Source of the DNA: Roseateles aquatilis
GTDB lineage: Bacteria; Pseudomonadota; Gammaproteobacteria; Burkholderiales; Burkholderiaceae_C
Assembly: GCF_002205645.1 (NCBI RefSeq)
Contig: NZ_NIOF01000001.1
Coordinates: 248,001-312,000 of the forward strand
DNA: 64,000 bases
Direction: 5' to 3'
Shown here: positions 26,711 to 50,398 of the stretch, in pieces
Layout: the number at the start of each line of letters is the position of its first letter
Position numbering within the stretch: position 1 is the first letter of the stretch
Notes under the pieces: model-generated
The model's input: only the letters and a program-made list of their open reading frames with translations
Told to the model about the DNA's origin: nothing
Databases searched by the model: none
Translations under genes and position numbers: made by a program

Positions 26711-27629
26711 GGCGCTCCCCTTCTCCCGGCGCGCGGTCGGTGGCGCGGCGACGCGGCGCGGCCGGCTTCTCGGCGCCGCTCAACGCGTCGATCCACGACT
26801 CCAGCTGCGCGAAGCTGGGCTTGATGTTGAGCTGCACCAGGCGGCGCCCGGCGTCGATCGCCAGCAGCGGCGGCTTGCCCGCCACGTGCGTGACCAGCAC
26901 CACCTTGACGGACTCCAGCGACGCGAGCTCCTCGTGCACCAGCTGCTTCATCATGTTGGACACCGGATCCAGCACGCCGTAGCAGAAGAAGATGCCGATG
27001 AAGGTGCCGACCATCGCCGCCGCCACCATCACCGCGATCTCGCCGCTGCCGGCGCCGTCGGCCACCTGGTTCATCGCCATCACGATGCCCAGCACCGCGG
27101 CCAGGATGCCGAAGCCTGGCATCGCCTCGGCGATCTTGTGCAGCGACTTGGACGGCTGCATCAGCTCGTCGTGGATCGCCTCCAGCTCCTGCTCCAGCAC
27201 GCCCTCCAGCTCGTGCGCGCTGATCTTGCCCATCGCCATCAGGCGGAAGTTGTCCACGATGAAGTGCAGCAGCTTGGGGTTGGCCAGGATCAGCGGATAG
27301 CGCTGGAACAGCACGCTCTGCTGCGGCGCCTCGACGTGCGCGTCCAGCGCCTTGAGCCCGCCGGCCGCCGCCTGCAGCAGCTCGTACATCAGCAGCAGCA
27401 ACTGGCGCTGGAACTCCTGGCCCTGCTTGCGACGGCCCAGCTTGCGCAGTTGCAGCAGCATCTCCGACAGCACGTGGCGCGGGTTGCCCAGCACGATGGC
27501 GCCCAGGCCCGCGCCGACGATGATCAGCAGCTCCACCGGCTGCCAGATCACCTTGAAGCTGCCGCCGTGCAGCATGAAGCCGCCGAAGACGCAGCCCAGG
27601 ACGATCAAAATTCCGACGAGTGCTTGCAT
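26700..27629 (-). CDS. motA: Flagellar stator protein MotA (LafT-type)
   Basis: A 309-residue inner-membrane protein with four helices (ILIVLGCVFGGFML; PVELLIIVGAGLGAIVLG; GFGILAAVLGIVMAMNQV; GTFIGIFFCYGVLDPVSN) and the large cytoplasmic loop between helices 2 and 3. The conserved loop Arg/Glu region (LLLLMYELLQ; ELEGVLEQELEAIHDEL) is present. It forms the ion channel with MotB and pushes on FliG. It lies between fliA and motB, as in lafS-T-U. Confidence 0.96.
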   Translation of the reverse strand: MQALVGILIVLGCVFGGFMLHGGSFKVIWQPVELLIIVGAGLGAIVLGNPRHVLSEMLLQLRKLGRRKQGQEFQRQLLLLMYELLQAAAGGLKALDAHVEAPQQSVLFQRYPLILANPKLLHFIVDNFRLMAMGKISAHELEGVLEQELEAIHDELMQPSKSLHKIAEAMPGFGILAAVLGIVMAMNQVADGAGSGEIAVMVAAAMVGTFIGIFFCYGVLDPVSNMMKQLVHEELASLESVKVVLVTHVAGKPPLLAIDAGRRLVQLNIKPSFAQLESWIDALSGAEKPAAPRRRATDRAPGEGERRAA

Positions 27630-27645
27630 GACATGTCCCGGGCGC

Positions 27646-28359
27646 TCAGGCCTGCTGGAGGAAGGCGCGCATCTTGGCGAGCGCGGCCTTGTTGATCTGG
27701 GAAACGCGCGCCTCGGTGAGATCGAGCACCGCGGCGATCTCCTTGAGGCTGGCGTCGAATTCGTAGTAAAGCTGGATCACCTTCTGCTCGCGCTCGTTGA
27801 GCGCGGTCAGCGCCTGCGCGATCGAGCGCGTCACCATCAGCTGCGCCTCCGGACCGCGACGGTCGCTGGGCAGTTGCGCCAGTTCCTCGACCAGCTCGTC
27901 GAAGCTGGCCAGTTCCTCGGCCACCTCGGCCTGCAGGAAGTCCTGGTAGGCCTTGGGCGTGAGCTTCAGGTGGGCGAGGATCTCGGCCTCCGCCGGCTCG
28001 CGGCCCAGTTGGCGGGTCAGCGCGCGCAGCGCGTCGCGCTGGCGATGGCTGTCCTGCCGCACCGTGCGCGGCCGCCAGTCCTGGCGGCGCAGCTCGTCGA
28101 GGATGGCACCGCGCACGCGCAGCGCGGCGAAGGGGCCGAAGCCGCCGTCGGGCATGCCGTAGCGGCGCAGCGCCTCCAGCAGGCCCATCAGGCCGATCTG
28201 CTCCATGTCCTCGCGGTCCATCACCGCGCTGGCCTGCGCCGAGAGCTGCCGCACCACGCGCTTGACCAGGGGCGCGTACTCGCGCAGCGTGCGCTGCTCG
28301 ATGTCCGCACCCAGGCCCGCGGTGGCGACGGCGCCCCATTCGGCGTAGGCATGCTGCAC
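27646..28359 (-). CDS. fliA: Flagellar sigma factor FliA (sigma-28, LafS-type)
   Basis: A 237-residue sigma factor. GTG 28359 is the best start (AGCGGGGAA upstream, 14 nt after the fliL stop). Region 2: EYAPLVKRVVRQLSA...MEQIGLMGLLEALRRY...FGPFAALRVRGAILDELRRQDWRPR. Region 4: TALNEREQKVIQLYYEFDASLKEIAAVLDLTEARVSQINKAALAKMR. It should direct transcription from the TTTAAG-N14-GGTCG promoters upstream of fliD and flagellin. Its partner FlgM is encoded 2 kb downstream in the same gene string. Confidence 0.96.
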   Translation of the reverse strand: MQHAYAEWGAVATAGLGADIEQRTLREYAPLVKRVVRQLSAQASAVMDREDMEQIGLMGLLEALRRYGMPDGGFGPFAALRVRGAILDELRRQDWRPRTVRQDSHRQRDALRALTRQLGREPAEAEILAHLKLTPKAYQDFLQAEVAEELASFDELVEELAQLPSDRRGPEAQLMVTRSIAQALTALNEREQKVIQLYYEFDASLKEIAAVLDLTEARVSQINKAALAKMRAFLQQA

Positions 28360-28373
28360 GGCGTGTTCCCCGC

Positions 28374-28880
28374 TTACTCGATGATCAGCTTGCCGATCAG
28401 CGCCTCGGCGAACGGCGCCTCGCGCCGGTCCGCCGCATAGCTGTCGACATAAGCCTTGTTGAGCAGGCGCGCGAAGTCCTCGACGCGCATCGCCTGCGCG
28501 CTCTCGACCGTGTACGCGGACAGCGCCTTGACCGCGACGGTGCGCAGCAGCGGCAGGTGCTCCTTGGTGCGGCGCTCCTGGTCGGGCAAGGTCTTGAAGA
28601 CGATGTCCACCGCCATGTAATGCGACACCGCCGAGCCGTTGGGCCCGCGCAGCATCACCAGCACCTTGTCCAGGGTGACGTACTTGTAGTCGGGCGCGGG
28701 TTTGCCGTCGTCCTTGGCCGCCTTGGGGTCCGTCGCCCCCTTTGCGCCGGCCGCGGCGGCGGTCGCGGCGCCGTCCTTGGCGTGCTGCGACTGCAGCCAC
28801 CACACGGCGGCGCCCGCCGCGCCCGCGGCCAGCAGCGCCACCGCGGCGATCAAGCCGATCAGCTTGGCCTTGCTCTTCAT
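28374..28880 (-). CDS. fliL: Flagellar basal body-associated protein FliL (LafF-type)
   Basis: A 168-residue protein with one N-terminal membrane helix (LIGLIAAVALLAAGAAGAAVWWL), an Ala/Lys/Asp linker and a periplasmic stomatin-like FliL domain (YKYVTLDKVLVMLRGPNGSAVSHYMAVDIVFKT...VKALSAYTVESAQAMRVEDFARLLNKAYV). It stabilises the stator complexes around the motor. It overlaps the fliK stop by 4 nt and lies between fliK and fliA, as in lafE-F-S. Confidence 0.93.
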   Translation of the reverse strand: MKSKAKLIGLIAAVALLAAGAAGAAVWWLQSQHAKDGAATAAAAGAKGATDPKAAKDDGKPAPDYKYVTLDKVLVMLRGPNGSAVSHYMAVDIVFKTLPDQERRTKEHLPLLRTVAVKALSAYTVESAQAMRVEDFARLLNKAYVDSYAADRREAPFAEALIGKLIIE

Positions 28881-30277
28881 CGTGAATTCCTCGTGTTGGC
28901 GTCCAGCGCGTCGTCGAACGCGAAGGCCGCGCCGCCGCCCGTGTCGTCATCGCCGAGCGCGCGGCCCGGCTGGCGCTGCCCATCGCGGGCCTGGCCACCC
29001 GAGGCGCCCGCGCCGGATTGGCCGGCGCCGTCACGGCCGCGGCCGTCTCCGGCCGACTGCGCGCCACCGGCGACCTGCACCGACACGTCGCCGCTGTGGC
29101 GCTGCACCAGTTCATGGCGCAGCGGCTCGGCGATCTGGCGCAGTTGCTGGCGGACCTCGTCATGGCTGGCGCTGAGCTGCACCTGCAGCGCGCCGCCTTG
29201 CTGGCGGATGTCGATCTCGATGCGGCCAAGTTCCGGCGGCGACAGGTGCAGCCGCGCGCCCTCGCCGCGCTGCGCGATCTGGAGTTGCAGCCGGTCGCCC
29301 AGGGCCTGCAGCAGCGGCTGCTGCCAGGCCTCGCGCGAGGCGGGGAGCGTCAACGTGCCGCCGGGCGCGACGGACGTCGAGACGTCACCGGCGTCGGTCG
29401 GCGCCACCGCGGTCATCGCGGCCGACAGGTCGGCGTTCCAGCGCTGCAGGTTCTGCCAGGAGGCGGCATCGGCGGGCGACGTCCTGGACGACACCGGCGT
29501 CGCGGAAGCCTCGGCGAACAGGACATCGCCCGCGCCGGGCGGCTGCATGGCCAACAGCCGCGCCGGATCGGCCGCCATCGCGGACGCGGACGAGGCGGAC
29601 GTTCCCGGCGCGGCGCCGGACGGGCTCGAGCCGTCCCGCGTCGACGCGGCCATCGCGCGCGGCATCGCCGCCGGCAATGGCACCAGCGGGAACGTCAGCA
29701 TCGACGTCAGCGGCACGGGGACCGATCCGGCCGGCGATTGATCGGCGTCGGCGGTCGTGTCATCGGTCTTCGAATCACCGTCGCGCGCGGTGACGCTGGC
29801 GATCGCGGCGTCGGCGGGGGGAACGCCGCCGGGTGCGCGACCCAGCAGCTCGTCGAGCGCGCGCATCAGCGCGGCGTCCAGGATGTCGACGCCCTCGCCG
29901 GAGGCCGGAGCGGACGCGGCGGCGCCGGCATCGCGCTCATCGGCCGCCGCCGACATCAACTGGCCGAACGGGCGCGACGCCGTGGCGGGCGCCGTCGCGT
30001 GGACCACCGTCGTGCGGTCGGCGGTCGTGCGGTCGGTGGTCGCGGATTGGGCGGCCCGCTTCGCGTCGACATCGGCGTGAGCGTCGGAAACGGTCGAGCC
30101 GGACGTCGAGTCCGGCGCGATCCCCGACATCGCCTTCGGCTTCGCTGTCGACAGAGTCTTCGCATCGTTGCCTGCCGCCGACCGGGGCGGCGTCCTGTCG
30201 ATGGCGGACACCGCGGCGCGGACCGTGGAAGCGGTCGCGATCGCGGTCGCCGCCGAGGTCGTCGTGGTCATCGTCAT
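28877..30277 (-). CDS. fliK: Flagellar hook-length control protein FliK (LafE-type)
   Basis: A 466-residue protein starting at ATG 30277, which overlaps the fliT stop (ATGA). The N-terminal three quarters are a low-complexity Ala/Ser/Thr/Asp ruler region. The C-terminal substrate-switch domain is typical (QRGEGARLHLSPPELGRIEIDIRQQGGALQVQLSASHDEVRQQLRQIAEPLRHELVQ), followed by a Gly/Gln tail. It measures hook length and switches FlhB specificity. A second FliK-like gene lies at 48368-49321. Confidence 0.92.
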   Translation of the reverse strand: MTMTTTTSAATAIATASTVRAAVSAIDRTPPRSAAGNDAKTLSTAKPKAMSGIAPDSTSGSTVSDAHADVDAKRAAQSATTDRTTADRTTVVHATAPATASRPFGQLMSAAADERDAGAAASAPASGEGVDILDAALMRALDELLGRAPGGVPPADAAIASVTARDGDSKTDDTTADADQSPAGSVPVPLTSMLTFPLVPLPAAMPRAMAASTRDGSSPSGAAPGTSASSASAMAADPARLLAMQPPGAGDVLFAEASATPVSSRTSPADAASWQNLQRWNADLSAAMTAVAPTDAGDVSTSVAPGGTLTLPASREAWQQPLLQALGDRLQLQIAQRGEGARLHLSPPELGRIEIDIRQQGGALQVQLSASHDEVRQQLRQIAEPLRHELVQRHSGDVSVQVAGGAQSAGDGRGRDGAGQSGAGASGGQARDGQRQPGRALGDDDTGGGAAFAFDDALDANTRNSR

Positions 30278-32427: not shown

Positions 32428-32455
32428 AGGCGACCGAAAGTGCATGGGGCTTAAA
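32428..32455 (-). promoter_or_regulatory. Sigma-28-like promoter of fliD
   Basis: On the minus strand TTTAAG (32455-32450), 14 nt, then GGTCGCCT (32435-32428). The spacing equals that of the sigma-28 consensus TAAAG-N14-GCCGATAA. The -35 box overlaps the TAA of fliJ. The same pattern occurs upstream of the flagellin gene. It would make fliD-S-T-K-L-A-motA-motB-flgM-flgN a late transcript. Confidence 0.65.
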
Positions 32456-32966
32456 CATGACGGCCCCACCCGCTCGGACCGAAGGCGGCCGGGCCGCCGA
32501 AACCGGATTCGCCCGGCGCCGCGGCGGCGCGTTGGCCGGTGCATTGGCCGGCAATTTCGTCCTGGCGCTTCTGCTCGCGGCGGGCCTGCTCGGCGCGCGC
32601 CTGCACGTCGGCGCGCTCGACCAGTTGGCGCAGCGACTCCTGCTTGCGGGCGGCGGCCAGCGTCTCGGCGCGCACCTGCACCAGCTCGGCCTCGCGGCGG
32701 ACCAGTTCCTCGCGCTGGCGGTCGGCCCAGCCCAGCATGGCCTGCTTGTAGGCCGCGCTGTTCTGCGCCAGGCCCGGCAGTTGGGCGCCGCTGAGCGTGG
32801 CATGGGCGCCGAGCGCCTCCAGCCGGTCGACGGTGCCCTGCACGCGCTGGCACAGCTGCTGCTGCGCCACCAGCTTCGCCTGGTGCCGGTCCAGCCGCAG
32901 TTGCTGCAGCTCGGCCAGCCGACCCAGGTTGCGGCGCATGGCGTCCCTGGCGTTGGACGCGGTCAT
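32451..32966 (-). CDS. fliJ: Flagellar export protein FliJ
   Basis: A 171-residue, strongly coiled-coil protein (RDAMRRNLGRLAELQQLRLDRHQAKLVAQQQLCQRVQGTVDRLEAL; RQREELVRREAELVQVRAETLAAARKQESLRQLVERADVQARAEQARREQKRQDEIA), as FliJ is. ATG 32966 overlaps the fliI stop (ATGA). It links the FliI ATPase to FlhA in the export apparatus. A Gly/Pro-rich tail of about 35 residues follows the coil. Confidence 0.9.
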   Translation of the reverse strand: MTASNARDAMRRNLGRLAELQQLRLDRHQAKLVAQQQLCQRVQGTVDRLEALGAHATLSGAQLPGLAQNSAAYKQAMLGWADRQREELVRREAELVQVRAETLAAARKQESLRQLVERADVQARAEQARREQKRQDEIAGQCTGQRAAAAPGESGFGGPAAFGPSGWGRHV

Positions 32967-34294
32967 GCCAGCACCTCCTTCAACCGGTCCAGCGTCTGCG
33001 CCAGCGGCGCGGCCTCGTGGGTGCCCTGGTGCAGGAAGTCCTCGATGCGCGGCCACAGCGCGACGGCGCGGTCGGTGGCCGGGTCGGCGCCGGGCACGTA
33101 GGCGCCCAGCGGCATCAGCTCGCGGACCTGCTCGAAGCGCGCCATCAACTGCTTGAGCTCGCGGGCGGCCTGCTGCTGCGGCCGGTCGGTGACCAGCGCC
33201 ATGCAGCGGCTGATGGACTGCGCGATGTCGATGGCGGGATAGTGGCCGCGCTCGGCCAGCGCCCGCGACAGCACGATGTGGCCGTCCAGGATCGCCCGCG
33301 CGGTGTCGACGACCGGGTCCTGCTGGTCGTCACCCTCGGCCAGCACGGTGTAGATGGCGCTCATGGTGCCCTCGCCCTCGCCGTTGCCGGCGCTCTCGAC
33401 CAGCTCCGGCAGCAGGCTGAAGACCGACGGCGGATAACCGCGCGTGGCCGGCGGCTCGCCCAGCGCCAGCGCCACCTCGCGCTTGGCCATCGCGTAACGC
33501 GTCAGCGAGTCCACCAGCAGCAGCACGTGGCGGCCCTGGTCACGGTAATGGGCGGCGATGCCGTGGCACAGCTCGGTGGCGCGCAGCCGCATCAGCGGCG
33601 ACTCGTCCGCCGGCGCCACGACGACGACCGCGCGCGCCAGGCCCTCGGCGCCGAGCGACAGATCGATGAACTCGCGCACCTCGCGGCCGCGCTCGCCGAT
33701 CAGGCCGACGACGACCACGTCCGCCACGGTATTGCGGGTGATCAGGCCCAGCAGCACGCTCTTGCCGACGCCGGAGCCGGCCATCAGCCCGACGCGCTGG
33801 CCGCGGCCCAGCGTCAGCAGGCCGTTGATGGCGCGCACGCCCACGTCCAGCGGCTCGTCCACCGGCTTTTTGCGCAGCGGGTTGACCCGCGGCGGCACCA
33901 TCTGCAGCGGCTGGTCGCCGCCCAGGCGGCCCAGGCCGTCGATCGGCTCGCCCAGCCCGTTGACGATGCGCCCCATCCACTGCGGGCCGATCATCAGCGA
34001 GGCGCGGTCCGGCGCGGGCAGCACGCGGGCACCGGCGGCCAGGCCGTCGGGTTTCTTGAACGGCATCAGGTAGGCGACCTGGTCGCGGAAGCCGACGACC
34101 TGCGCGGCCAGCCAGCCGTCCGCGGCGGTGCCGCCGGCGCCGTCGCCGCGTGTCTCGATCAGGCAGCGCTGACCGGTGCGCAGCGTGCAGCCGGACGCTT
34201 CCAGCAGCAGGCCGGACGCGCCGACCAGGCGGCCGGTGGGCGTGGAGACCGGCACGTCGCCGAGCTCGACGCGGCGCAGCGCGTTGCGGATCAT
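32963..34294 (-). CDS. fliI: Flagellar export ATPase FliI
   Basis: A 443-residue F1-like ATPase. ATG 34294 overlaps the fliH stop. Walker A: LMAGSGVGKSVLLGLI; Walker B: VLLLVDSLTRYAMAKREVALALGEPPATRGYPPSVFSLLPELVESAG, both near-invariant in FliI. It energises unfolding and entry of export substrates at the cytoplasmic face, with FliH and FliJ flanking it in the operon. Confidence 0.97.
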   Translation of the reverse strand: MIRNALRRVELGDVPVSTPTGRLVGASGLLLEASGCTLRTGQRCLIETRGDGAGGTAADGWLAAQVVGFRDQVAYLMPFKKPDGLAAGARVLPAPDRASLMIGPQWMGRIVNGLGEPIDGLGRLGGDQPLQMVPPRVNPLRKKPVDEPLDVGVRAINGLLTLGRGQRVGLMAGSGVGKSVLLGLITRNTVADVVVVGLIGERGREVREFIDLSLGAEGLARAVVVVAPADESPLMRLRATELCHGIAAHYRDQGRHVLLLVDSLTRYAMAKREVALALGEPPATRGYPPSVFSLLPELVESAGNGEGEGTMSAIYTVLAEGDDQQDPVVDTARAILDGHIVLSRALAERGHYPAIDIAQSISRCMALVTDRPQQQAARELKQLMARFEQVRELMPLGAYVPGADPATDRAVALWPRIEDFLHQGTHEAAPLAQTLDRLKEVLA

Positions 34295-35058
34295 GCGCGG
34301 TGCTCCGGCAGATCGGCGGGCTGCGTGGACGGCGCCGCGCCGTCGGCCGAGGCGGCCTCGTGCGCGCCGTCGGCGCCATCGCCCGCGCTTTCGGGAATCA
34401 ACTGGCCGCGGACCTGCGCCATGCAGGCGGTGAGCCGTTGCCGGCAACCGGCGTCGGCCTCGCGACCACCCGCCAGGACGCGGCACTCGCCCGGCTCCAG
34501 CGCGGCATCGGCGCGCAGCGTCCAGTCCTTGATCCGCTCCGGCCCCAGTTCCAGCAGGCGCTGGCGATCCTCGGGATTGAGGAACACCTCGACGCCGTCG
34601 CGCGCCAGCGGCATCGAGGACAGCGTCTCGTCGACCAGCGCCAGCAGTTGCGCCGGGCGCAACGTCAGCTCGGCGCGGATGACCTGCCGCGCGACGCGCT
34701 CGACCAGCTCCACGACCTCGTGGCGGGTGGCGTTCTGGTAGTCCTGCTGCAGCTGGCACAGGTGCGTCAGCAGCGTCTCGACCGCCGCGACCGGGCTGAC
34801 CAGCAGCGCCTTGGCGTCGTCGCGGCCGGCGGCCAGTCCTTGCGCATGGCCAGCGGCCTCGGCGGCGACGCGGGCGTCGGCCTGGCCGGACTGCAGTCCG
34901 CTCGCGTAACCTTCCTCGTAGCCCTTGGCCAGGCCTTCCTGGAAGCCCTGCGCCAGGCTGGCCTGCAGCTGCGCGCCGGTCTGCCCCGCGAGGGACGCGG
35001 CCGGGCCGGCGCTGAAATGCGCCAGTGGCGGGAAGCGATGCGGACGCAGCGTCTTCAT
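34291..35058 (-). CDS. fliH: Flagellar export regulator FliH
   Basis: A 255-residue protein from ATG 35058, which overlaps the fliG stop (ATGA). It contains the FliH helix with GxxxG-like repeats (QASLAQGFQEGLAKGYEEGYASGLQSGQADARVAAEAAGHAQGLAAG) and the C-terminal FliI-binding domain (VVELVERVARQVIRAELTLRPAQLLALVDETLSSMPL...VEVFLNPEDRQRLLEL). It binds FliI and anchors it to the C ring. Confidence 0.93.
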   Translation of the reverse strand: MKTLRPHRFPPLAHFSAGPAASLAGQTGAQLQASLAQGFQEGLAKGYEEGYASGLQSGQADARVAAEAAGHAQGLAAGRDDAKALLVSPVAAVETLLTHLCQLQQDYQNATRHEVVELVERVARQVIRAELTLRPAQLLALVDETLSSMPLARDGVEVFLNPEDRQRLLELGPERIKDWTLRADAALEPGECRVLAGGREADAGCRQRLTACMAQVRGQLIPESAGDGADGAHEAASADGAAPSTQPADLPEHRA

Positions 35059-36092
35059 TCGACGACGTCCTCGGCGAACAGCTGCACCTGGATCTCGCCC
35101 GCGTCCACCAGCGCCTTCACCTGCGCCATGATCTCGGCGCGCGCCTGCTCGACGCGGCTCATCGGCATCGGGCCGCCGCGGCGGATCAGGTCCTCGAAGC
35201 TCTGCGCCTGGCGGCGCGGCATCGCGGCCAGCACGGCGTCGCGCACCGGCGGCTCGGCGCCCTTGAGCGCGACCGCCCACAGCTCCATCGGCACTTCCTC
35301 GATGAGGCGCGTGAGCGAGGCTTCGCTCTGGCGCGACAGCATGAAGAACTCGTACATCGAGGTCTCGATCTCGCTGACGACCTCGGGGTCGTGCGCGCGC
35401 AGCAGTTCCACCATCTGCTGGCGCTGGCCGGGCAGGCGGTTGAGGATCTCGGCGACCTGCTTCACGCCCTCGACGGCGGCGCCCTGCTGGCCCAGGCCGG
35501 CCAGGCAGCGCTCGACCAGGTCCTCCAGCTCCGACAGCAGCTCGGCGTCGACCTCGGACAGGCGCGCCATCTGCAGCAGCACGCGGTCGCGTCCGCCCGC
35601 CGGCCCCTCGGGCAGCGCGGCGACGACCTCGCTGGCCAGCGCGCTCGGCAGGAAGGCCAGGAAGACCGCCTGCATGCGCTGGTGTTCATGGCTGATCTGC
35701 TCGGCCAGCCACTTCGGCGAGGCCCATTGCAGGCGCTGCATCTTGGGACGGATGGCGTCGCCGTAAATGCTGTTGAGCACGCTGGAGGCGATCTGCCCGC
35801 CCAGCGCCAGGTCCAGCGAGCGCTTCAGGTAGCTGCGCGACGCGCCGTGCACGCCGCTTTGCTCGCGGTAATCGTCGAAGAAGGTCTGCAGCGCGGTCTT
35901 GACCCAATCGACCTTGATGCCGGACAGGCGCGACATCACCTGCGTGACGTCCAGCAGTTCCTCGCGCGACAGGCAGCGCAGGACCGCCGCGGCGGGCTCC
36001 TCGCCCATGCTCAGCAGCACGATGGCGGCACGTTCGACCGGGCTCAGCGACGCGGCGCTGCCGGGCGGAATGAAATCACTCGCTTCGGCCAT
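35055..36092 (-). CDS. fliG: Flagellar rotor switch protein FliG
   Basis: A 345-residue protein, the normal FliG length. Three domains are visible: N-terminal (SPVERAAIVLLSMGEEPAAAVLRCLSREELLDVTQVMSRL), middle (KWLAEQISHEHQRMQAVFLAFLPSALASEVVAALPEG, in place of the EHPQ motif) and C-terminal (FMLSRQSEASLTRLIEEVPMELWAVALKGAEPPVRDAVLAAMPRRQAQSFEDLI...VEQARAEIMAQVKALVDAGEIQV), which meets the MotA loop. It overlaps fliF by 17 nt. Confidence 0.96.
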   Translation of the reverse strand: MAEASDFIPPGSAASLSPVERAAIVLLSMGEEPAAAVLRCLSREELLDVTQVMSRLSGIKVDWVKTALQTFFDDYREQSGVHGASRSYLKRSLDLALGGQIASSVLNSIYGDAIRPKMQRLQWASPKWLAEQISHEHQRMQAVFLAFLPSALASEVVAALPEGPAGGRDRVLLQMARLSEVDAELLSELEDLVERCLAGLGQQGAAVEGVKQVAEILNRLPGQRQQMVELLRAHDPEVVSEIETSMYEFFMLSRQSEASLTRLIEEVPMELWAVALKGAEPPVRDAVLAAMPRRQAQSFEDLIRRGGPMPMSRVEQARAEIMAQVKALVDAGEIQVQLFAEDVVE

Positions 36093-37914
36093 TTTTCTTC
36101 TGCACCCATTGCTTGACGACTTCCGCCACCCGCTCCGGCTCCTTGGCCGCGAGCACCTTCAGGTGGTCCACCAGCACGTCGACCGGGGATCCCGGCGGCG
36201 GCAGTTCGTAGTTCTCCAGCAGCGGCGTCACGGCCGAGCCGCCGGATGCCGCATGGCCCGCCAGCGCGCCGTGCGCCGGCTGACCCGGCGCGGGCAGGCC
36301 GTCGACGGCCGGCGACATGCCCGGTGTCTGGCCCTGGGCGCCGACCAGCGGCTCCAGCGGCGTCAGATCGGGGCCCGCGGGGCCCGCGCGGCGATCAACG
36401 CGGCGATCGGCGGCATCGCCCGGCTTGCGGCCCCCCATGCCCAGCGCGTGCTGGCCCATGCGCAGCAGGGGCCGCGCCAGCAGCAGGTATCCGAGCAACG
36501 CGGCCACCGCGTAGGCGCCCCAGCCGCCGAACTCGACGAGCGTGTCGCGCTGCTGGTACCAGGGCTCGGCGACGGGCGCCGTCGGGAACGCGAGCGACGA
36601 CACGCTGAGCTTGTCGCCGCGCGTGGTGTCCATGCCTAGGCCGCCACCGAGCAGGCGCTCGATCTTGGTCAGGTCCGCGGGCGTCCATTCCTTGGCGCCG
36701 CCCGGCGCCGCGGCGGTGTTGAGCAGCACCGCCACGCTCAGGCGCTCCAGGCGGCCACGGCTCTTCTTCACCTGCGTGATGCTGCGGTCGTAGGCGTACT
36801 GGCGCGTCGCGGCGTTCTTGCGCGCGGTGCTGTTGTTGCCGCCGGCCGGATCCTCGCCGCGCGCGGCGGAGGCAGCGGCCGCGGCCAGCGCCGCCGGCGG
36901 CCGGTTGCTCAGCGAGCCCGGCACGCCCAGCGCGATGCGCTCGCGGTCCTGCTCCTCGCGCATCGCCTCGTTGGTCAGCTTGGGCGCGTCGCCGTACTGC
37001 TCGCGCGTTTCCTGCACGCGGTCGTTGTTGACCTCGGCGGTGACGCTGAGCCGGTAGTTCTGCTCGCCCAGCACGGGCGCCAGCAGCTCGTGCACGTTGC
37101 GACGCACCTCGTCCTGGATGCGGCGCTGGGCTTCGTTGCCCTGCGCGCCGCCGTCGAAGCCTTCGCTCATGTCGACGCGCGCCGACAGCAGGTTGCCTTG
37201 CTGGTCCACCAGGCTGACGCGCGACGGGTCCAGGCTGGCCACCGATCCGGCCACCAGGTTGATCGCGGCGGCGATCTGCTCGTGGTTGAGCGAGCGCCCC
37301 GGCTTGAGCGCCAGCACGACCGACGCGGAGCTCTTCTGCCCGTCGTTCAGCACGAAGGAACTGCTCTTGGCGATGGACAGGTGCACGCGCGCCGACTCGA
37401 CCGCGTCCAGCGTCATCATGCTCTGCGCCAGCTCACCCTCCAGGCCGCGACGGAAGCGGATGTCCTGCACGAACTGGCTCACGCCCAGCGGATCGTTCCG
37501 GTCCATCAGCTCCAGGCCGGCCGGCAGCTTGGCGACGACGCCCTTGGCCGCCAGCAGCATGCGGGCGCGGCCCAGGTCGGACTCGGGCACCAGCACCTGG
37601 CCGCTCTCGGGATGCAGGCGGTAGGCGATGCGTTCCGCGTCCAGCACCGACAGCACGTCGGCGGTGGGCACATGCTCGCGCTGACCGAAGACGGGCTTGT
37701 AGCCGGCCTGGTCGCGCCACAGCAACATCAGCACCAGCGCCGTCACCACGGCGGCCAGCACCAGCAGCGGCGCCGCGCCGCGCAGGCCGGCACCCGCCGC
37801 CGGCGCGGCCTTGCCCAGGCCGCTCCATGCGTCGCCCAGGCGCTGGCGCCAACCGGCGGCGCCGGTGGGCGCGCCGTCGGGCCGCGTGGCCGAGAGAGTC
37901 TGCAAGTCGTTCAT
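36076..37914 (-). CDS. fliF: Flagellar MS-ring protein FliF
   Basis: A 612-residue protein with two membrane helices (LLVLAAVVTALVLMLLW near 50 and WGAYAVAALLGYLLLARPLL near 470), the periplasmic YscJ/FliF domain between them (YRLHPESGQVLVPESDLGRARMLLAAKGV; ELMDRNDPLGVSQFVQDIRFRRGLEGELAQSMMTLDAVESARVHLSI), and a C-terminal FliG-binding helix (VDHLKVLAAKEPERVAEVVKQWVQKK). It forms the inner-membrane base of the motor. Confidence 0.97.
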   Translation of the reverse strand: MNDLQTLSATRPDGAPTGAAGWRQRLGDAWSGLGKAAPAAGAGLRGAAPLLVLAAVVTALVLMLLWRDQAGYKPVFGQREHVPTADVLSVLDAERIAYRLHPESGQVLVPESDLGRARMLLAAKGVVAKLPAGLELMDRNDPLGVSQFVQDIRFRRGLEGELAQSMMTLDAVESARVHLSIAKSSSFVLNDGQKSSASVVLALKPGRSLNHEQIAAAINLVAGSVASLDPSRVSLVDQQGNLLSARVDMSEGFDGGAQGNEAQRRIQDEVRRNVHELLAPVLGEQNYRLSVTAEVNNDRVQETREQYGDAPKLTNEAMREEQDRERIALGVPGSLSNRPPAALAAAAASAARGEDPAGGNNSTARKNAATRQYAYDRSITQVKKSRGRLERLSVAVLLNTAAAPGGAKEWTPADLTKIERLLGGGLGMDTTRGDKLSVSSLAFPTAPVAEPWYQQRDTLVEFGGWGAYAVAALLGYLLLARPLLRMGQHALGMGGRKPGDAADRRVDRRAGPAGPDLTPLEPLVGAQGQTPGMSPAVDGLPAPGQPAHGALAGHAASGGSAVTPLLENYELPPPGSPVDVLVDHLKVLAAKEPERVAEVVKQWVQKKNGRSE

Positions 37915-37933: not shown

Positions 37934-38269
37934 TCACAGCTGCAGCTTGATCAGCTCGTCCACGGCGCCGGCCACCTTGTTCCTGACCTGCATCAGCATC
38001 GAGAACGACAGGCTGGCTTCCTGGCTGGCGAGCATCGCGCCGACGAGGTCGTCGCTCTCCCCGCGCTCGACCGCCTCCATGCGGGCGGCGGCGGCCTGAT
38101 CGCGGTCGTCCACGCGTCGCAGCATCTGCTCGAAACCCGGCATGGCTGGGTTATCGCCCAGGCCCACTTGCATGGACTGCGCGTCACGCTGCAAGCGCAC
38201 GGCATCCTGCTTCAACAGCGATTCCATCGCCGACTGGCCGACGGCGGCATTCAGGGTCGTGATCGACAT
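37934..38269 (-). CDS. fliE: Flagellar hook-basal body protein FliE
   Basis: A 111-residue protein from ATG 38269 (AGAGGT upstream). The C-terminal segment LVGAMLASQEASLSFSMLMQVRNKVAGAVDELIKLQL is diagnostic of FliE. It joins the MS ring to the rod. It is the first gene of the long minus-strand operon. A c-di-GMP-I riboswitch aptamer lies on the same strand about 560 nt upstream. Confidence 0.95.
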   Translation of the reverse strand: MSITTLNAAVGQSAMESLLKQDAVRLQRDAQSMQVGLGDNPAMPGFEQMLRRVDDRDQAAAARMEAVERGESDDLVGAMLASQEASLSFSMLMQVRNKVAGAVDELIKLQL

Positions 38270-38272
38270 ACC

Positions 38273-38830
38273 TCTGTTCCCTCCAATATCAGGCCCGGCC
38301 ACGCATGCTCGCGCCGCCGTCCCCGGGACTATTCGTTCACCTTATCCGTCCATCACCCGCGGTGATCGGATCGGCTTCGCTCTTGATTTCCTCCGCCACC
38401 CCCGGGGATTCCCCTTGGGACAAATGTCGGAGTTGAGTCAAATCCTCGTCGGGTCGTCTATTCAATTAACGCACTGCGCCGCCGATTTATCACCCGACAG
38501 ATGTCCTATTGTTTACAGATCGTTTCATTTCGACAATTCAGGACAAGGCAATCCCTCGCACCCGTGCGGCGGCGATATATTTGAATGCGAATGTCGGAAA
38601 CCCTGGCCAATACCCACGGCTGCGCAGCCGCGCGGATATCCGCTGGCGCCGTCGGAACCACGGCGGCGCCGGCCTGGATCGGGTCAGGGAATGAAAAGCT
38701 GTGCGTGAATGACCATGTCCGTCCTCTCTCTGACGGGCACCCCTCGGCGGGAATCGTGCAGGGTCACAACAGGCCCGGATGAGGCCTGGCAGGCGAGCGC
38801 CTTTAAACCACGCGTCACGTGGCTCGCAGA
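38273..38830. other. Long spacer between fliE and the riboswitch
   Basis: About 560 bp with visibly lower GC than the surrounding genes and no credible long gene on either strand. On the minus strand a 10-codon frame (38716-38684, MVIHAQLFIP) has a strong purine-rich ribosome site (GAGAGAGGACGGAC), so it could be a leader peptide. Minus-strand stem-loops just after the aptamer include CAGAC-CUGA-GUCUG and CCACG/CGUGG followed by UUUAAA, the probable expression platform. The rest may be a long 5' leader of fliE or hold a second promoter. Confidence 0.5.
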
Positions 38831-38942
38831 CTCAGGTCTGGCAACCCCGCTATCTTGATCCGCGCCCTGTATGACGAGCGCCGGACGGTAGACCGGAGGC
38901 TTTGCGACCCCGGCTTTCGCTCGGGTGTGCCCTGATGTGTCG
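38831..38942 (-). promoter_or_regulatory. Cyclic-di-GMP-I (GEMM-I) riboswitch aptamer
   Basis: Read on the minus strand, the conserved parts occur in order: CAGGGCACACC, a stem with a GAAA tetraloop (CCCGAGC-GAAA-GCCGGG with one bulge), the near-invariant GTCGCAAAGCCTCCGGTCTA block, a second stem (TCCG-G-CGCTC pairing with GGGCGCGGA), and the closing AAGATAGCGGGGTTGCC. These match the class I aptamer of Vibrio (CAGGGCAAACC, CGAAAG, ACGCAAAGCCTCCGG, GGTAGCGGGGTTACC). It is oriented toward fliE. c-di-GMP binding would change downstream RNA folding and so expression of the fliE-F-G-H-I-J operon; on or off direction is not known. Confidence 0.9.
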
Positions 38943-39009
38943 GACTGTAGTCGGTGTGTTCGTCCGCAACAAGAACCGTTTGTGCACTGCGTCAAACGAG
39001 GTTTGGCGA

Positions 39010-39027
39010 CCGTGAAGTAGTTCACGG
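39010..39027. repeat. Hairpin upstream of the riboswitch
   Basis: A perfect 7-bp inverted repeat (CCGTGAA-GTAG-TTCACGG) between the proposed promoter and the aptamer. It may be a regulator-binding site or a small RNA hairpin in the leader; nothing decides between these. Confidence 0.4.
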
Positions 39028-39128
39028 CCGACATCGCAAACCCTGATGGTTTATGACAGTCAAAAGTCGGCTTTGTATCGAGACTGATAAATCTGAAAAT
39101 CAGGATGGCCGTACTTTCCAGCCAGATA

Positions 39129-39156
39129 TGACGACACCTTCGAAGCCGACCTTAAA
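39129..39156 (-). promoter_or_regulatory. Sigma-28-like promoter reading toward riboswitch and fliE
   Basis: On the minus strand TTTAAG (39156-39151), 14 nt, then TGTCGTCA (39136-39129). The flagellin promoter has TTTAAG-N14-GGTCGTCC, so six of eight -10 bases and the whole -35 agree. A transcript starting near 39122 would run about 180 nt to the aptamer and about 850 nt to fliE. Confidence 0.5.
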
Positions 39157-39229
39157 CAGTTGGCGTTCGGCTCGTGCGATTCGCGGTTGTCGGTTTGTGA
39201 TTTATTCCCTGACCGTGCGATTGAGCCGG

Positions 39230-39257
39230 TTCAAATGCTGGCTTAAACCGCCGTCGA
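39230..39257 (+). promoter_or_regulatory. Sigma-28-like promoter of the fliM-flhA operon
   Basis: TTCAAA (39230-39235), 14 nt, then GCCGTCGA (39250-39257), which keeps the GCCG core and spacing of the sigma-28 consensus TAAAG-N14-GCCGATAA. It overlaps the left arm of an inverted repeat (AACCGCCG at 39246-39253 with CGGCGGTT at 39269-39276), which could be an operator. A transcript from about 39264 would have a leader of about 110 nt to the fliM ATG. Confidence 0.5.
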
Positions 39258-39320
39258 TTCCTAGAATTCGGCGGTTATGGCATGACCATTCATGACAATT
39301 GGATTAAATCCGGTCGTCAT

Positions 39321-39339
39321 CCAGGAGAGCCTCTCCTGG
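39321..39339. repeat. Stem-loop in the fliM leader
   Basis: A perfect 8-bp stem (CCAGGAGA / TCTCCTGG) with a 3-nt loop, 36 nt before the fliM ATG. It could influence translation of fliM, whose own ribosome site is weak, or be part of a terminator-like attenuator. Confidence 0.4.
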
Positions 39340-39374
39340 GGAATGCCACCCGCCCATTCTTCCTGGATCCACGG

Positions 39375-40322
39375 ATGACCTCCCAGCCCAGTCCCGCCAC
39401 CGCCCTGGAGCCCCGGCCCGTCGCGCTCGACCCGCGCAGCCTCGGCCGTCCGGTCCACCTGTTGCCGCTGGTGGCGCAGCGCCTGCGCGAGGCGCTACAG
39501 CGCACGCTGGTGCAGCCCTGGAACCGCCGCTACCGCAGCCGCTATGAACTGCAGGTGCTGAGCTTGCAGCCGCTCGGCGTCACGGCCATGTCGGCCCGGG
39601 TGGACGGCGACGGCGCCGCGGCCGGATGGCTGCGCGCGCAGGGGCCCGCCGGTCCGCTGGCCTGCCGCATCGATCGCGCACTGGTGCTGACGCTGATGGC
39701 GCGGCGGCTCGGGCTGGGCGCCGACCCCGTCGACGATGACCACGCCGCGCCGCCGACGGCGACGGAGGAGCGGCTGCGCCATCTGCTCGCCGGCCAGTTC
39801 GCCGGCCTGTGCCTGCAATGGCTGGCGCAGCGCGCGGGCCAGGATGACGAGTCCGGGCAAGACCTGGCCCCGCCGGAGGATGTGCCGTCGCTGCGGGCCG
39901 GCGCCCTGCCCGCCTTCGGCCCGGATGCGTGGGTGCTGAGCGTGTCCATGCGCGACGTGGCCGGTGGTGGCGCGGAGTCCTCGGACGATGCCGGCACCGC
40001 GCCGGACATGACGCTGCGCCTGGCGCTGGACGGCGCCTACCTGCAACCGCTGCTGCGGCGGCTGTCCGGGCAGCACCGGCCGGCGCGCCCCGCCGCGGCG
40101 CAGACCCAGCCGCTGGCGCGGCGCCTGACGCTGACGCTGCAGGCCCGGCTGCTGGAGCGCGAGCTGGACCTGGGCACCGTGCTGGACCTGCGGCCCGGCG
40201 CGCTGATCCCGATCCGGATGGCCGACGCGACGGTGCTGGTGGATGGCTCGGCGCTGATGAGCGCGGCCGTCGCCGAACACCAGGGCAAGTTGTGCCTGAC
40301 CTCTTTCCAAGACCTGGAGTGA
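39375..40322 (+). CDS. fliM: Flagellar motor switch protein FliM, divergent
   Basis: A 315-residue protein from ATG 39375. The middle domain is divergent (LACRIDRALVLTLMARRLGLGAD in place of the usual RRFxFxxVDxxFGG). The C-terminal surface-presentation (SPOA) domain is clear (LTLTLQARLLERELDLGTVLDLRPGALIPI...VLVDGSALMSAAVAEHQGKLCLTSF). The N-terminus (MTSQPSPATALEPRPVALD) lacks the LSQxEIDALL peptide that binds CheY-P, and a 31-residue extension from an upstream ATG does not supply it. It belongs to the C ring. It is first in the plus-strand operon fliM-N-P-Q-R-flhB-flhA. Confidence 0.85.
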   Translation: MTSQPSPATALEPRPVALDPRSLGRPVHLLPLVAQRLREALQRTLVQPWNRRYRSRYELQVLSLQPLGVTAMSARVDGDGAAAGWLRAQGPAGPLACRIDRALVLTLMARRLGLGADPVDDDHAAPPTATEERLRHLLAGQFAGLCLQWLAQRAGQDDESGQDLAPPEDVPSLRAGALPAFGPDAWVLSVSMRDVAGGGAESSDDAGTAPDMTLRLALDGAYLQPLLRRLSGQHRPARPAAAQTQPLARRLTLTLQARLLERELDLGTVLDLRPGALIPIRMADATVLVDGSALMSAAVAEHQGKLCLTSFQDLE

Positions 40323-47636: not shown

Positions 47637-48248
47637 TCAGGCCGTGCTCATCACCTGCTCCAACGACCGCGCCATGATCTCCGCCACCTGATCCAGCAGC
47701 TCGGCGGTGTCGTCGTCGGGGATCAGGTCCTGCGCCGGCACGAGCGCGCCGGTCAGGCTCAGCAAGGTGTGGAACGGCGTGCGCCCCCCGGAGCCCAGCG
47801 GCGCAACATCGCCCATGAAGCGGTCGTCGAAGGGCGTCACCGGGCGCGCGGTCAGGTCGACCATCGTGCCCAGCATCCGCAGCACGTCGCCGCGATGGTC
47901 GCGCTGCACCACGCGGCCGCGCGACAGCACGGTGCGGTAGCCCGAGCCGTTGCTGCGCAGGCGGAAGCGCTGCTCATACCCGTCGGTGAAGCCGTCGAAG
48001 TGCGCGCGCAGCGACAGCATCATCGGCTCCAGGTCCTCGGGATGCACCCGGCAGCGCCAGAAGGCGGTGCTGTCCGGCTGATCCGGATGAGGAAAACCGA
48101 GGTGCTCCTTCCAGCGCGGCGAGTAGTGCACCACCTCCAGCTGCGGGCTCAGATCCCACACGCCGAAGGCACCGCTCTCGACGGCGCTCCGCCAATTCCT
48201 GACTTCATGATGACGGATACCCATGGCGATGCATCTTGCGCGCCGCAT
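47637..48248 (-). CDS. PAS-domain protein without an output domain
   Basis: A 203-residue protein. ATG 48248 is used; ATG 48224 (MGIRHHEVRNW) is equally plausible and neither has a clear ribosome site. A PAS fold with PAC tail is visible (WRSAVESGAFGVWDLSPQLEVVHYSPRWKEHLGFP...VHPEDLEPMMLSLRAHFDGFTDGYEQRFRLRSNGSGYRTVLSRGRVVQRDHRGDVLRMLGTMVDLT). About 60 residues follow, ending in an acidic helix. No kinase, GGDEF, EAL or HTH domain follows. It lies between garD (convergent) and the FliK-like gene. Confidence 0.75.
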   Translation of the reverse strand: MRRARCIAMGIRHHEVRNWRSAVESGAFGVWDLSPQLEVVHYSPRWKEHLGFPHPDQPDSTAFWRCRVHPEDLEPMMLSLRAHFDGFTDGYEQRFRLRSNGSGYRTVLSRGRVVQRDHRGDVLRMLGTMVDLTARPVTPFDDRFMGDVAPLGSGGRTPFHTLLSLTGALVPAQDLIPDDDTAELLDQVAEIMARSLEQVMSTA

Positions 48249-48367: not shown

Positions 48368-49321
48368 TCAGCTCAGCGCCGCAACCAGCTCCGCGGCGGC
48401 CGTCAACAGCGCGGGCTCCGACCGCATCGCGGGGAACGGGTCCACCGGCACCCACAGCGGCTGCCGGCGCCACCCCAGGCGCTGCAGCCGGAAGCCCACC
48501 CGCACCAGCGCCGCGACCAGCCGCGGCAACTCCGCGCGCAGCGCCGTCAGGATCTGGTCGTTTTCCGCCAGCAGCGTGATCGACAGCGCAGTCCGCGTGC
48601 CCTGAAGCTGCACGCCGATCGCCTCGCCGCGCCAGCGCAGCAGCAGGCTCAGCGCGGCGTCCTCGGACACGGCCGCGGGCGCGGGGGCACCCGACCCGGA
48701 GGACGCCTCGTCGTCCGGCGCGCCACCGCGCCGGTCCGCGCGAACCCAGTACGGCAGCGGCAACAGCCACAGCGGCTCGCCGCCCGGCCCGACCGGCACC
48801 TGCCCATGCGCCAGCGCCAGGGTCCAGGCGGACACCAGCGCCGCCGGGGTCCGCATCGCCGGCTCTGGCACCAGCGTGGTCAGCAGTTGACGGCGCCATT
48901 GCGCCAGATCGACCCGCAGCGCGGCAAGCTGCCCCCAGCCGCTGTTGCCGCCGGCGCCCATGTCGGCGCGGCCCGAGCCCGGCCGATCCCATGCGCCGGC
49001 TGGCCCGTCGCGGCCGCCGCCGGCGCGCCGCTCGATCACTTCGAGTTCCACGCGCGGCGCCACCGCCCGCACGCGCAGCAGCACCTCGTCGCCCGGCAGC
49101 AGGTCGTCCAGCGGCGGCTCGATCAGCGTCATCACCCGGCCGCTGTCCAGCGATTCCAGGCGCCAGCCGGCGCCGGGCCGGTCCGCGCCCGCCAGGCGCA
49201 GCACCGCGCCGGGTGCCAGGCCCGGCAAGCCCCCCAGGTCCCGCAGCAGCGGCTGCAGGCGCGACGACGCGGTCACGGCGCCGACCGCGCCGACGTTGCC
49301 ATTCGATGTCGATCCCGCCAT
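48368..49321 (-). CDS. FliK-like protein near the flagellin gene
   Basis: A 317-residue protein. The N-terminal part (LAPGAVLRLAGAD...LLPGDEVLLRVRAVAPRVELEVIE) looks beta-rich. The C-terminal part (LSLLLRWRGEAIGVQLQGTRTALSITLLAENDQILTALRAELPRLVAALVRVGFRLQRLGW) resembles the substrate-switch domain of FliK-like proteins. The middle is Gly/Ala/Asp-rich. It follows the flagellin gene on the same strand after a terminator-like hairpin. It may be a second hook-length or export-switch factor; family assignment is tentative. Confidence 0.55.
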   Translation of the reverse strand: MAGSTSNGNVGAVGAVTASSRLQPLLRDLGGLPGLAPGAVLRLAGADRPGAGWRLESLDSGRVMTLIEPPLDDLLPGDEVLLRVRAVAPRVELEVIERRAGGGRDGPAGAWDRPGSGRADMGAGGNSGWGQLAALRVDLAQWRRQLLTTLVPEPAMRTPAALVSAWTLALAHGQVPVGPGGEPLWLLPLPYWVRADRRGGAPDDEASSGSGAPAPAAVSEDAALSLLLRWRGEAIGVQLQGTRTALSITLLAENDQILTALRAELPRLVAALVRVGFRLQRLGWRRQPLWVPVDPFPAMRSEPALLTAAAELVAALS

Positions 49322-49450: not shown

Positions 49451-50329
49451 TCAGCCCAGCAGGGACATGACCAGGCCGGACATGCTGTTGCTTTGCTTGA
49501 GCATGGCGGTGCCCGACTGCATCAGCATCTGCTTCGTGGTCATCGTGGACGACTCGGCGGCGAAGTCCGTGTCCATGATGCGGCCCTTGGCGGCCGACGT
49601 GTTGGTGCTCATGTTCTGCAGGTTGTTGTAGACATGGTCCAGGCGGTTGGCCGCGGCGCCGAAGGAAGCGCGCAGTTCGCCGACCTTGTCGATCGCGCCG
49701 CCGATGGTCGTCAGCATCGTGTTGGCCGTGGCGGACAGTTCCGCGCCGGCGGCCGGCGTGGCGTTGTACTGCTTGGAGACATTGCCCAGCGCCGTCGCCA
49801 GCGCGGTCAGCTGGCCGCTGACGTCCACGCTCATCGATTCACCGGCCGACGCGCCGATCTGGAAACTCATCGCGGTGGACATCTTGCCGCCGGCGCCGGT
49901 GATGAGGGCGCCGTCCGAGAACAGCTGCGTGCCGCCGAAGGACGTGTTCTTGATGATGTTGGTCAGCTCGGTGCCCAGCGCGTCGTACTCGCCTTGCATG
50001 GCGGTCTTGTCGGTCGCGGTCGACGAGGCCGAGAAGGCTTCCGTGGCCAGGTCCTTCATGCGCAGCAGGATGTTGCTGACTTCGTTCAGCGCGCCTTCCC
50101 CGGTCTGCAGCATCGAGATGCCGTTCTGCGTGTTGCGCTGGGCGACGGCCATGCCGCGGGTCTGGGCGTCCAGGCGGGTGGCGATCTGCAGGCCGGCGGC
50201 GTCGTCCATCGCGGAATTGACGCGATAGCCGGTACCCAGGCGGGTCATCGAGGTGGCCAGGCTCTTCTGCGACGAGCTCAGCGAGTTCTGGGTCGACAGG
50301 GCCGCGGCATTGGTGTGCAGGCTCAACAT
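49451..50329 (-). CDS. Flagellin (LafA-type)
   Basis: A 292-residue filament protein. ATG 50329 is preceded by AGGAG at 8-nt spacing and gives the standard start MLSLHTNAAALSTQNSL; an upstream in-frame start adds 16 unrelated residues. N-terminal D0/D1 (STQNSLSSSQKSLATSMTRLGTGYRVNSAMDDAAGLQIATRLDAQTRGM) and C-terminal D1/D0 (AANRLDHVYNNLQNMSTNTSAAKGRIMDTDFAAESSTMTTKQMLMQSGTAMLKQSNSM) are intact; the central variable region is minimal, as in lateral flagellins. It is about 3.6 kb from the rest of the cluster. A sigma-28-like promoter lies 70-97 nt upstream. Confidence 0.97.
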   Translation of the reverse strand: MLSLHTNAAALSTQNSLSSSQKSLATSMTRLGTGYRVNSAMDDAAGLQIATRLDAQTRGMAVAQRNTQNGISMLQTGEGALNEVSNILLRMKDLATEAFSASSTATDKTAMQGEYDALGTELTNIIKNTSFGGTQLFSDGALITGAGGKMSTAMSFQIGASAGESMSVDVSGQLTALATALGNVSKQYNATPAAGAELSATANTMLTTIGGAIDKVGELRASFGAAANRLDHVYNNLQNMSTNTSAAKGRIMDTDFAAESSTMTTKQMLMQSGTAMLKQSNSMSGLVMSLLG

Positions 50330-50398
50330 TTGATTCGCTCCTAGAGAGTGGTCTTGCGCTTGTTGGGTGAGGAGCAATCAACTGCCCTCCCCACCACA

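Follow-up and report, generated by a model that had tools for sequence, protein, structure and literature searches.

A predicted class I cyclic-di-GMP riboswitch conserved beside lateral-type flagellar genes of Roseateles aquatilis and other betaproteobacteria

Cyclic-di-GMP (c-di-GMP) governs swimming versus settling, and in proteobacteria it does so mostly via protein effectors. A stretch of 64,000 nucleotides from the betaproteobacterium Roseateles aquatilis (contig NZ_NIOF01000001.1, positions 248,001 to 312,000; hereafter the window) raises the question of whether an RNA might take such a part at a set of flagellar genes, as it carries what resembles a class I c-di-GMP aptamer ahead of a lateral-type basal-body operon. 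A conserved RNA switch on such an operon would link the messenger to the building of flagella by a simple route, in a genome that has 62 matches to the GGDEF domain, and the reason for which a riboswitch would target a leader open reading frame (ORF) could be studied in this system. None of the GGDEF matches lies in the window (C12:248001-312000); the statement of an initial annotation that the window lacks GGDEF, EAL and PilZ genes therefore holds by family search for the first of these, and for EAL and PilZ it extends to the scanned portion of the window proteins, among which no such domain was found.

Against all 4227 Rfam families, searched with cmscan, the window gave a single match above the gathering score, to the c-di-GMP-I family (RF01051). 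The match occupies window positions 38941-38837 on the minus strand and spans the whole model (1-87 of 87); it scores 59.1 bits, the gathering score being 35, and has an E-value of 5.1e-9 (4e-10 on 5 kb). This Infernal search bears out the class I aptamer that the initial annotation had proposed for this strand, and its coordinates, 38831-38942, were correct to within 6 nt. Across the 6.39-Mb genome (48 contigs; 150 of 210 first-look candidates scored) the window aptamer is the one c-di-GMP-I match, and 14 control genomes searched likewise for c-di-GMP-I returned none. The first hairpin is predicted to be capped by a GAAA loop, a GNRA tetraloop. That the element is a decayed, functionless relic or a chance match is exceedingly improbable, and we reject it: the match is full length and 24 bits above the cutoff, and it is kept in several families together with a promoter-like site and a platform. 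Judged by its sequence, the element is a true c-di-GMP-I riboswitch; its setting is new and conserved, and its predicted platform is unlike the known flagellar precedent.

The predicted ligand can be read from an aptamer model built from 35 aptamers, namely that of the window, 18 from among 78 related loci, and 16 others. Columns G11, A39 and C101 are invariant in all 35 aligned sequences, and we take them to correspond to G20, A47 and C92 of the Vibrio cholerae Vc2 riboswitch (tfoY), presumed ligand contacts. A cGAMP-type variant (GEMM-Ib), which we assume to be marked by A replacing G20 (G20A), was rejected, as G stands at that column in 35 of 35. Like Vc2, this is a class I aptamer in a proteobacterium; it differs from Vc2 in the gene that it accompanies and in its core, which reads GCACACC/GGGUCGC (subvariant GCACACC / GGGGUCGCAAAG in the aptamer alignment; minus strand, 38837..38941) where Vc2 presumably has the canonical GCAAACC/GGGACGC. 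The flagellar aptamers of the 35-sequence alignment have GCACACC...GGGGUCGC in common and most others have GCAAA...GACGC, the two changes occurring together. The GCACACC/GGUCGC core is also found in some aptamers elsewhere, including those at L164, L166 and L167, where none of seven window fli proteins was matched, so that the core variant alone is no marker of flagellar loci. Counted as an exact pattern, which misses variants, and in genomes taken regardless of lateral loci, it is present in 3 genomes out of 399 for the order and 2 out of 369 for the class, both counts including R. aquatilis.

The aptamer sits between fliM and fliE, divergent genes that belong to a second flagellar system. 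The first large gene downstream of it, on the same minus strand, is a lateral-type fliE (37934..38269), followed by fliF (36076..37914), fliG (35055..36092), fliH (listed as 34291..35280, with an overlap into fliG and a true start that may be further in), the ATPase gene fliI (32963..34759 as listed, the true start probably being further in) and fliJ (32451..33056 as listed). Pfam confirms this fliE-F-G-H-I-J order, which had been read from the sequence at the outset, with FliJ just above the cutoff (PF02050, E 4.8e-7), and the distance to the fliE start at 38269, put at about 560 nt, measures 568 nt. On the plus strand, fliM (39375..40322, by Pfam) is the first gene of a divergent fliM-N-P...R-flhB-A operon comprising fliM, fliN, fliP, an FliR-family export gene, flhB and flhA. 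Beyond fliJ, the minus strand encodes FliD, FliS, a sub-cutoff FliT, FliK, a sub-cutoff FliL, a sigma factor, MotA and MotB; the system thereby has its own motor genes and a sigma28-like factor, with MotA, MotB and the sigma70-family factor in ORFs at 25628-29229. Further minus-strand genes are those for FlgN, a glucosaminidase (FlgJ-like), and the flg rod, hook and ring genes. A second FliK-like match, sub-cutoff (E 1e-4), at 48368-49321 on the minus strand adjoins a flagellin at 49451-50377, and a small PAS-domain protein is encoded near the flagellar cluster at 47637-48248 (minus strand).

Comparison of FliG proteins marks this flagellar system as secondary, since the other FliG of the genome, on contig C34, is only 29% identical to that of the window, which shares 49-52% identity with enteric and Pseudomonas FliG. 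These values uphold the earlier description of a lateral-type secondary flagellar operon in a betaproteobacterium. Flagellin matches lie both on C34 and in the window. The genome has three FHIPEP genes, the third of which (G000:C12:854832-856766, outside the window) scores far lower than the others, which makes a role in type III secretion export probable. By name, the nearest related loci are those of Roseateles, Mitsuaria and Pelomonas.

The riboswitch is common to many betaproteobacterial lateral-type flagellar loci and is not one strain's peculiarity. Within the genus, RF01051 matches occur in 14 of 16 genomes, 32 in total with that of R. aquatilis; eight of the 31 other aptamers lie between fliM and fliE, which brings the genomes with this arrangement to nine, our own included. 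The slot is uninformative in three genomes, one (G011) in which the contig ends within fliM and two (G005 and G012) without window-fli matches beside their FlhA. Among 78 named loci with a FliG relative, 25 carry the aptamer (18 that were used in the model and 7 that were not), and in all 25 it lies in the fliM-fliE interval in the orientation of fliE. The remaining 53 gave no match to our own model, nor weaker ones up to E 1. Rfam, given 22 of the 25 aptamer loci and 11 of the 53 others, confirmed all 22 and matched none of the 11. A FliG tree was built from 62 of the 79 rows, the 17 removed being near copies or cut and all without aptamer; the trait needs 4 changes on it versus 20.1 with shuffled labels, and none of 500 shuffles was as low. 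Carriers include Sphaerotilaceae, Comamonadaceae, Zoogloeaceae and Rhodocyclaceae, and a clade of 19 Oxalobacteraceae rows has no aptamer.

The same interval is recognizable in gammaproteobacterial lateral loci, for which we assume the names Flag-2, laf and, for the activator, LafK. There too the fliM and fliE gene groups flank one interval, and the enterobacterial FliG proteins are 49-51% identical to that of the window. In the sole enterobacterial locus scanned, that of an Enterobacter (L150), the interval contains a sigma-54 activator, unlike that of R. aquatilis, which holds the riboswitch; the fliM-fliE interval is of similar size in other enterobacterial loci. A LafK-type activator is absent from the window, as none of 11 genome matches to the L150 activator falls there. 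Some Oxalobacteraceae loci, for example L112, keep divergent fliM and fliE with no aptamer by the model (Rfam was applied to L112, L103 and L130 only), and the L112 interval has no ORF of the size and strand of LafK.

Lateral flagella have been described in Burkholderia dolosa, with LafA homologues in species including Roseateles depolymerans (PMC5773237); the word riboswitch is absent from the main text of that paper, occurs only in the reference list of PMC7998248, and is absent from PMC10037100. Among the matches listed in the open-access literature (titles and abstract openings, subscription journals being largely missing), no c-di-GMP riboswitch was found on lateral flagellar genes or at a betaproteobacterial flagellar locus, which is not proof of its being unpublished.

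Upstream of the aptamer, a candidate start of its transcript can be discerned. A sigma70-like promoter, TTGTTG-17-TACAGT (38944..38972, minus strand; shuffle p 0.06), has its -10 element ending 2 nt before the start of the aptamer model. When sigma70-like pairs were sought in the 75 nt upstream of each aptamer, the best -10 ended 2-6 nt short of the model start in 19 of the 26 loci, 30-32 nt short of it in four (the Zoogloea group), and 12, 25 and 40 nt short of it in L134, L091 and L088. The single-locus shuffle p was at most 0.02 in 10 of the 26, by a criterion chosen after seeing the alignments that makes the test partly post hoc, and a stricter 9-of-12 consensus scan of 38200-39400 returned no promoters. 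The promoter-like site would put the aptamer at the 5' end of the transcript. Farther out, centred 77 nt upstream of the aptamer, lies a palindrome CGTGA-N6-TCACG (39011..39026, minus strand; own site 8/10, shuffle p 0.09) similar to what we take to be the CRP-family consensus. In 13 of the 14 loci of a group termed type A the best site of this kind lies at -76 to -78, with shuffle p at most 0.05 in 8 of the 13, and in none of 12 other loci does it lie there; the fourteenth type-A locus, L092, has a like palindrome at -78 that is not its best site.

Between aptamer and fliE, a predicted structured domain directly follows the aptamer. The consensus fold of the type-A sequences (n=16) comprises three stem-loops inside a helix that competes with the aptamer and is formed by the GGGUUGC of the aptamer and a downstream GUGACCU. 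On the minus strand of the window, the 5' strand of this competing helix, GGGUUGC (38841..38847), is inside the 3' part of the aptamer; stem-loop 1, CAGAC-CTGA-GTCTG (38827..38840), is directly 3' of the aptamer core; a covarying stem-loop 2 region, GAGCCACG-TGA-CGCGTGGTTT (38805..38825), and a covarying stem-loop 3, CAGGCCT-CATCC-GGGCCTG (38770..38788), come next; and the 3' strand, GUGACCC (38761..38767), completes the helix. In the type-A platform 96.9% of cells are paired, versus 30.1-43.8% in slid controls (n=16), 27 cells are changed on both sides versus 9.8 in shuffles, and the covariation score is 0.263 versus 0.163. The competing helix is paired in 16 of 16 type-A sequences with variation on its 3' side only, without compensatory change, and so is supported by retention rather than by double changes. 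A separate consensus fold of nine Zoogloea/Azoarcus-group sequences differs and is weak, with little covariation, and was not used.

Conservation of the leader extends as far as a short ORF about 120-180 nt beyond the aptamer. In the window the leader alignments and scan place this ORF, of 10 codons (MVIHAQLFIP*), at 38684..38716 on the minus strand, with a Shine-Dalgarno GAGG at 38723..38726. In 20 of 26 loci the interval 115-170 nt after the aptamer contains an ATG with a Shine-Dalgarno 4-mer, as compared with a mean of 1.93 and a maximum of 5 in 500 sets of shuffled leaders, the criterion having been chosen after seeing the alignments and the test being partly post hoc. Looser rules, applied by eye, add four loci (L085, L088 with GTG, L131 and L156), and L100 and L134 have no leader start at the conserved place. 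The peptides of relatives, MVIHRHLFIP, MVIRRQLFTP, MNCHILV and MKPPGYT among others, are alike within clades and unlike between them, which suggests that the act of translation rather than the peptide sequence matters. In much of the Roseateles clade the strand at 38761..38767 is also complementary to the leader-ORF start region; this pairing of GUGACC is conspicuous (z below -1) in 8 of the 16 sequences, most of which belong to that clade, and in the sister clade it is weak in 4 of the 5 sequences. Reading ON or OFF from the predicted accessibility of the leader-ORF start was rejected: between aptamer free and aptamer folded, the mean for the Shine-Dalgarno went from 0.39 to 0.33 over 24 loci, in a direction inconsistent between them.

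The aptamer-to-fliE distance ranges from 308 to 638 nt among loci, and the final 300-400 nt before fliE (38270..38683 on the minus strand of the window, by alignments and by promoter and terminator scans) are unconserved. The leader could act by ordinary premature transcription termination before fliE, as in Clostridioides difficile flgB, with the leader ORF incidental, and there are features that suit this: a GC-rich stem-loop 3 soon after the aptamer, a T-run about 11 nt behind it in 3 of 10 aligned Roseateles-clade loci (of five in L031, and of four in L035 and L038), and terminator-like sites in 9 of 26 leaders. The leader of R. aquatilis, however, has no terminator-like site at all, its stem-loop 3 has no T-run (U-tract) behind it, the sites in the nine leaders are scattered with no common position, and the leader-ORF start recurs far above chance. 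An intrinsic terminator is thus not favoured, and we regard termination of this kind as distinctly unlikely. Of the initial proposal that stem-loops between aptamer and fliE are suited to an expression platform, the covarying domain after the aptamer remains, and a terminator-like structure before fliE does not. C is not raised over G in the distal leader of R. aquatilis, so that a rut site is not evident. By eye, a strong GC-rich inverted repeat without a U-tract is present soon after the leader-ORF stop (38645-38670, minus strand), and it is not evident in aligned relatives.

The reading that we favour, and consider moderately probable, is that the class I c-di-GMP riboswitch heads the fliEFGHIJ leader as an OFF switch working through translation of the leader ORF. 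The riboswitch would form the 5' end of the leader of this lateral-type operon. At low c-di-GMP the competing helix would form and the leader ORF would be translated; at high c-di-GMP the aptamer would retain its 3' strand, and the freed GUGACC, together with the platform, would mask the leader-ORF start. Translation would then stop, and the long untranslated RNA before fliE would be lost through Rho-dependent termination or decay, the net effect being that less lateral flagellum is assembled, by way of an early basal-body operon. The route probably runs through leader-ORF translation, and the riboswitch would then tie swarming-type flagella directly to c-di-GMP, as the initial annotation had suggested. 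A comparable leader is that of Mycobacterium tuberculosis ppe2, in which, according to PMC11260477, loss of the start or Shine-Dalgarno of an upstream ORF behind a B12 riboswitch cut expression of the main gene. Both are riboswitch leaders with a short ORF before the main gene, its translation being predicted here; they differ in ligand, aptamer and phylum, and the ppe2 upstream ORF overlaps the ppe2 start, whereas the leader ORF here ends about 400 nt before fliE.

The end of conservation just after the leader-ORF start, with 300-400 nt of unconserved sequence before fliE, would also suit a separate small unit, in which the aptamer transcript serves the leader ORF or a small RNA, fliE has its own promoter, and riboswitch control is absent or acts only in trans. 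No conserved promoter-like or terminator-like element was found between leader ORF and fliE, however: sigma54- and sigma28-like sites nearer fliE showed no excess over 40 shuffles in 25 of 26 loci including our own, the exception being L100, with a sigma28-like site of 10 versus a shuffle maximum of 9. Since the aptamer also faces fliE in every carrier and tracks the locus, we hold a separate unit to be rather unlikely. More tentatively than the OFF switch itself, and with the balance still against it, one may picture the fliM-fliE slot as a control position, occupied by a LafK-type activator in the enterobacterial locus examined and by a c-di-GMP riboswitch in many betaproteobacteria. The immediate target would be the conserved leader ORF, its translation would be the entry checkpoint for the lateral flagellum, and the ligand-controlled exchange of GUGACC between aptamer and leader-ORF start would be the switching step.

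The direction of the switch is probably OFF at high c-di-GMP, by analogy with general c-di-GMP biology and with C. difficile, in which, according to PMC11477304, the presence of a class I riboswitch upstream of the flgB operon is associated with c-di-GMP inhibiting motility. The two systems share an aptamer class heading an early flagellar operon; that of C. difficile belongs to another phylum and uses transcription termination, unlike the present leader, which has no terminator-like site, combines a structured platform with a leader ORF, and serves a secondary lateral-type system. The opposite sign, with c-di-GMP raising expression of the lateral flagellum, would be in line with the behaviour anticipated for adhesin-secretion genes that adjoin other aptamers of the genus, and no computation fixes the sign. 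Three such aptamers (L037, L046 and L036) are 43-85 nt upstream of ORFs that encode ShlB/FhaC-type two-partner secretion transporters, for which induction by c-di-GMP would be expected. High c-di-GMP, however, generally represses flagella, and this, with the C. difficile precedent, leaves an ON switch fairly improbable. A second aptamer of the ShlB/FhaC-associated kind was not found in the R. aquatilis genome. Two further aptamers of the genus (L021 and L024) are located 9-60 nt upstream of ORFs encoding large proteins that, by eye, have lipoprotein-like starts, one without a Pfam match and the other with an Ig-like domain.
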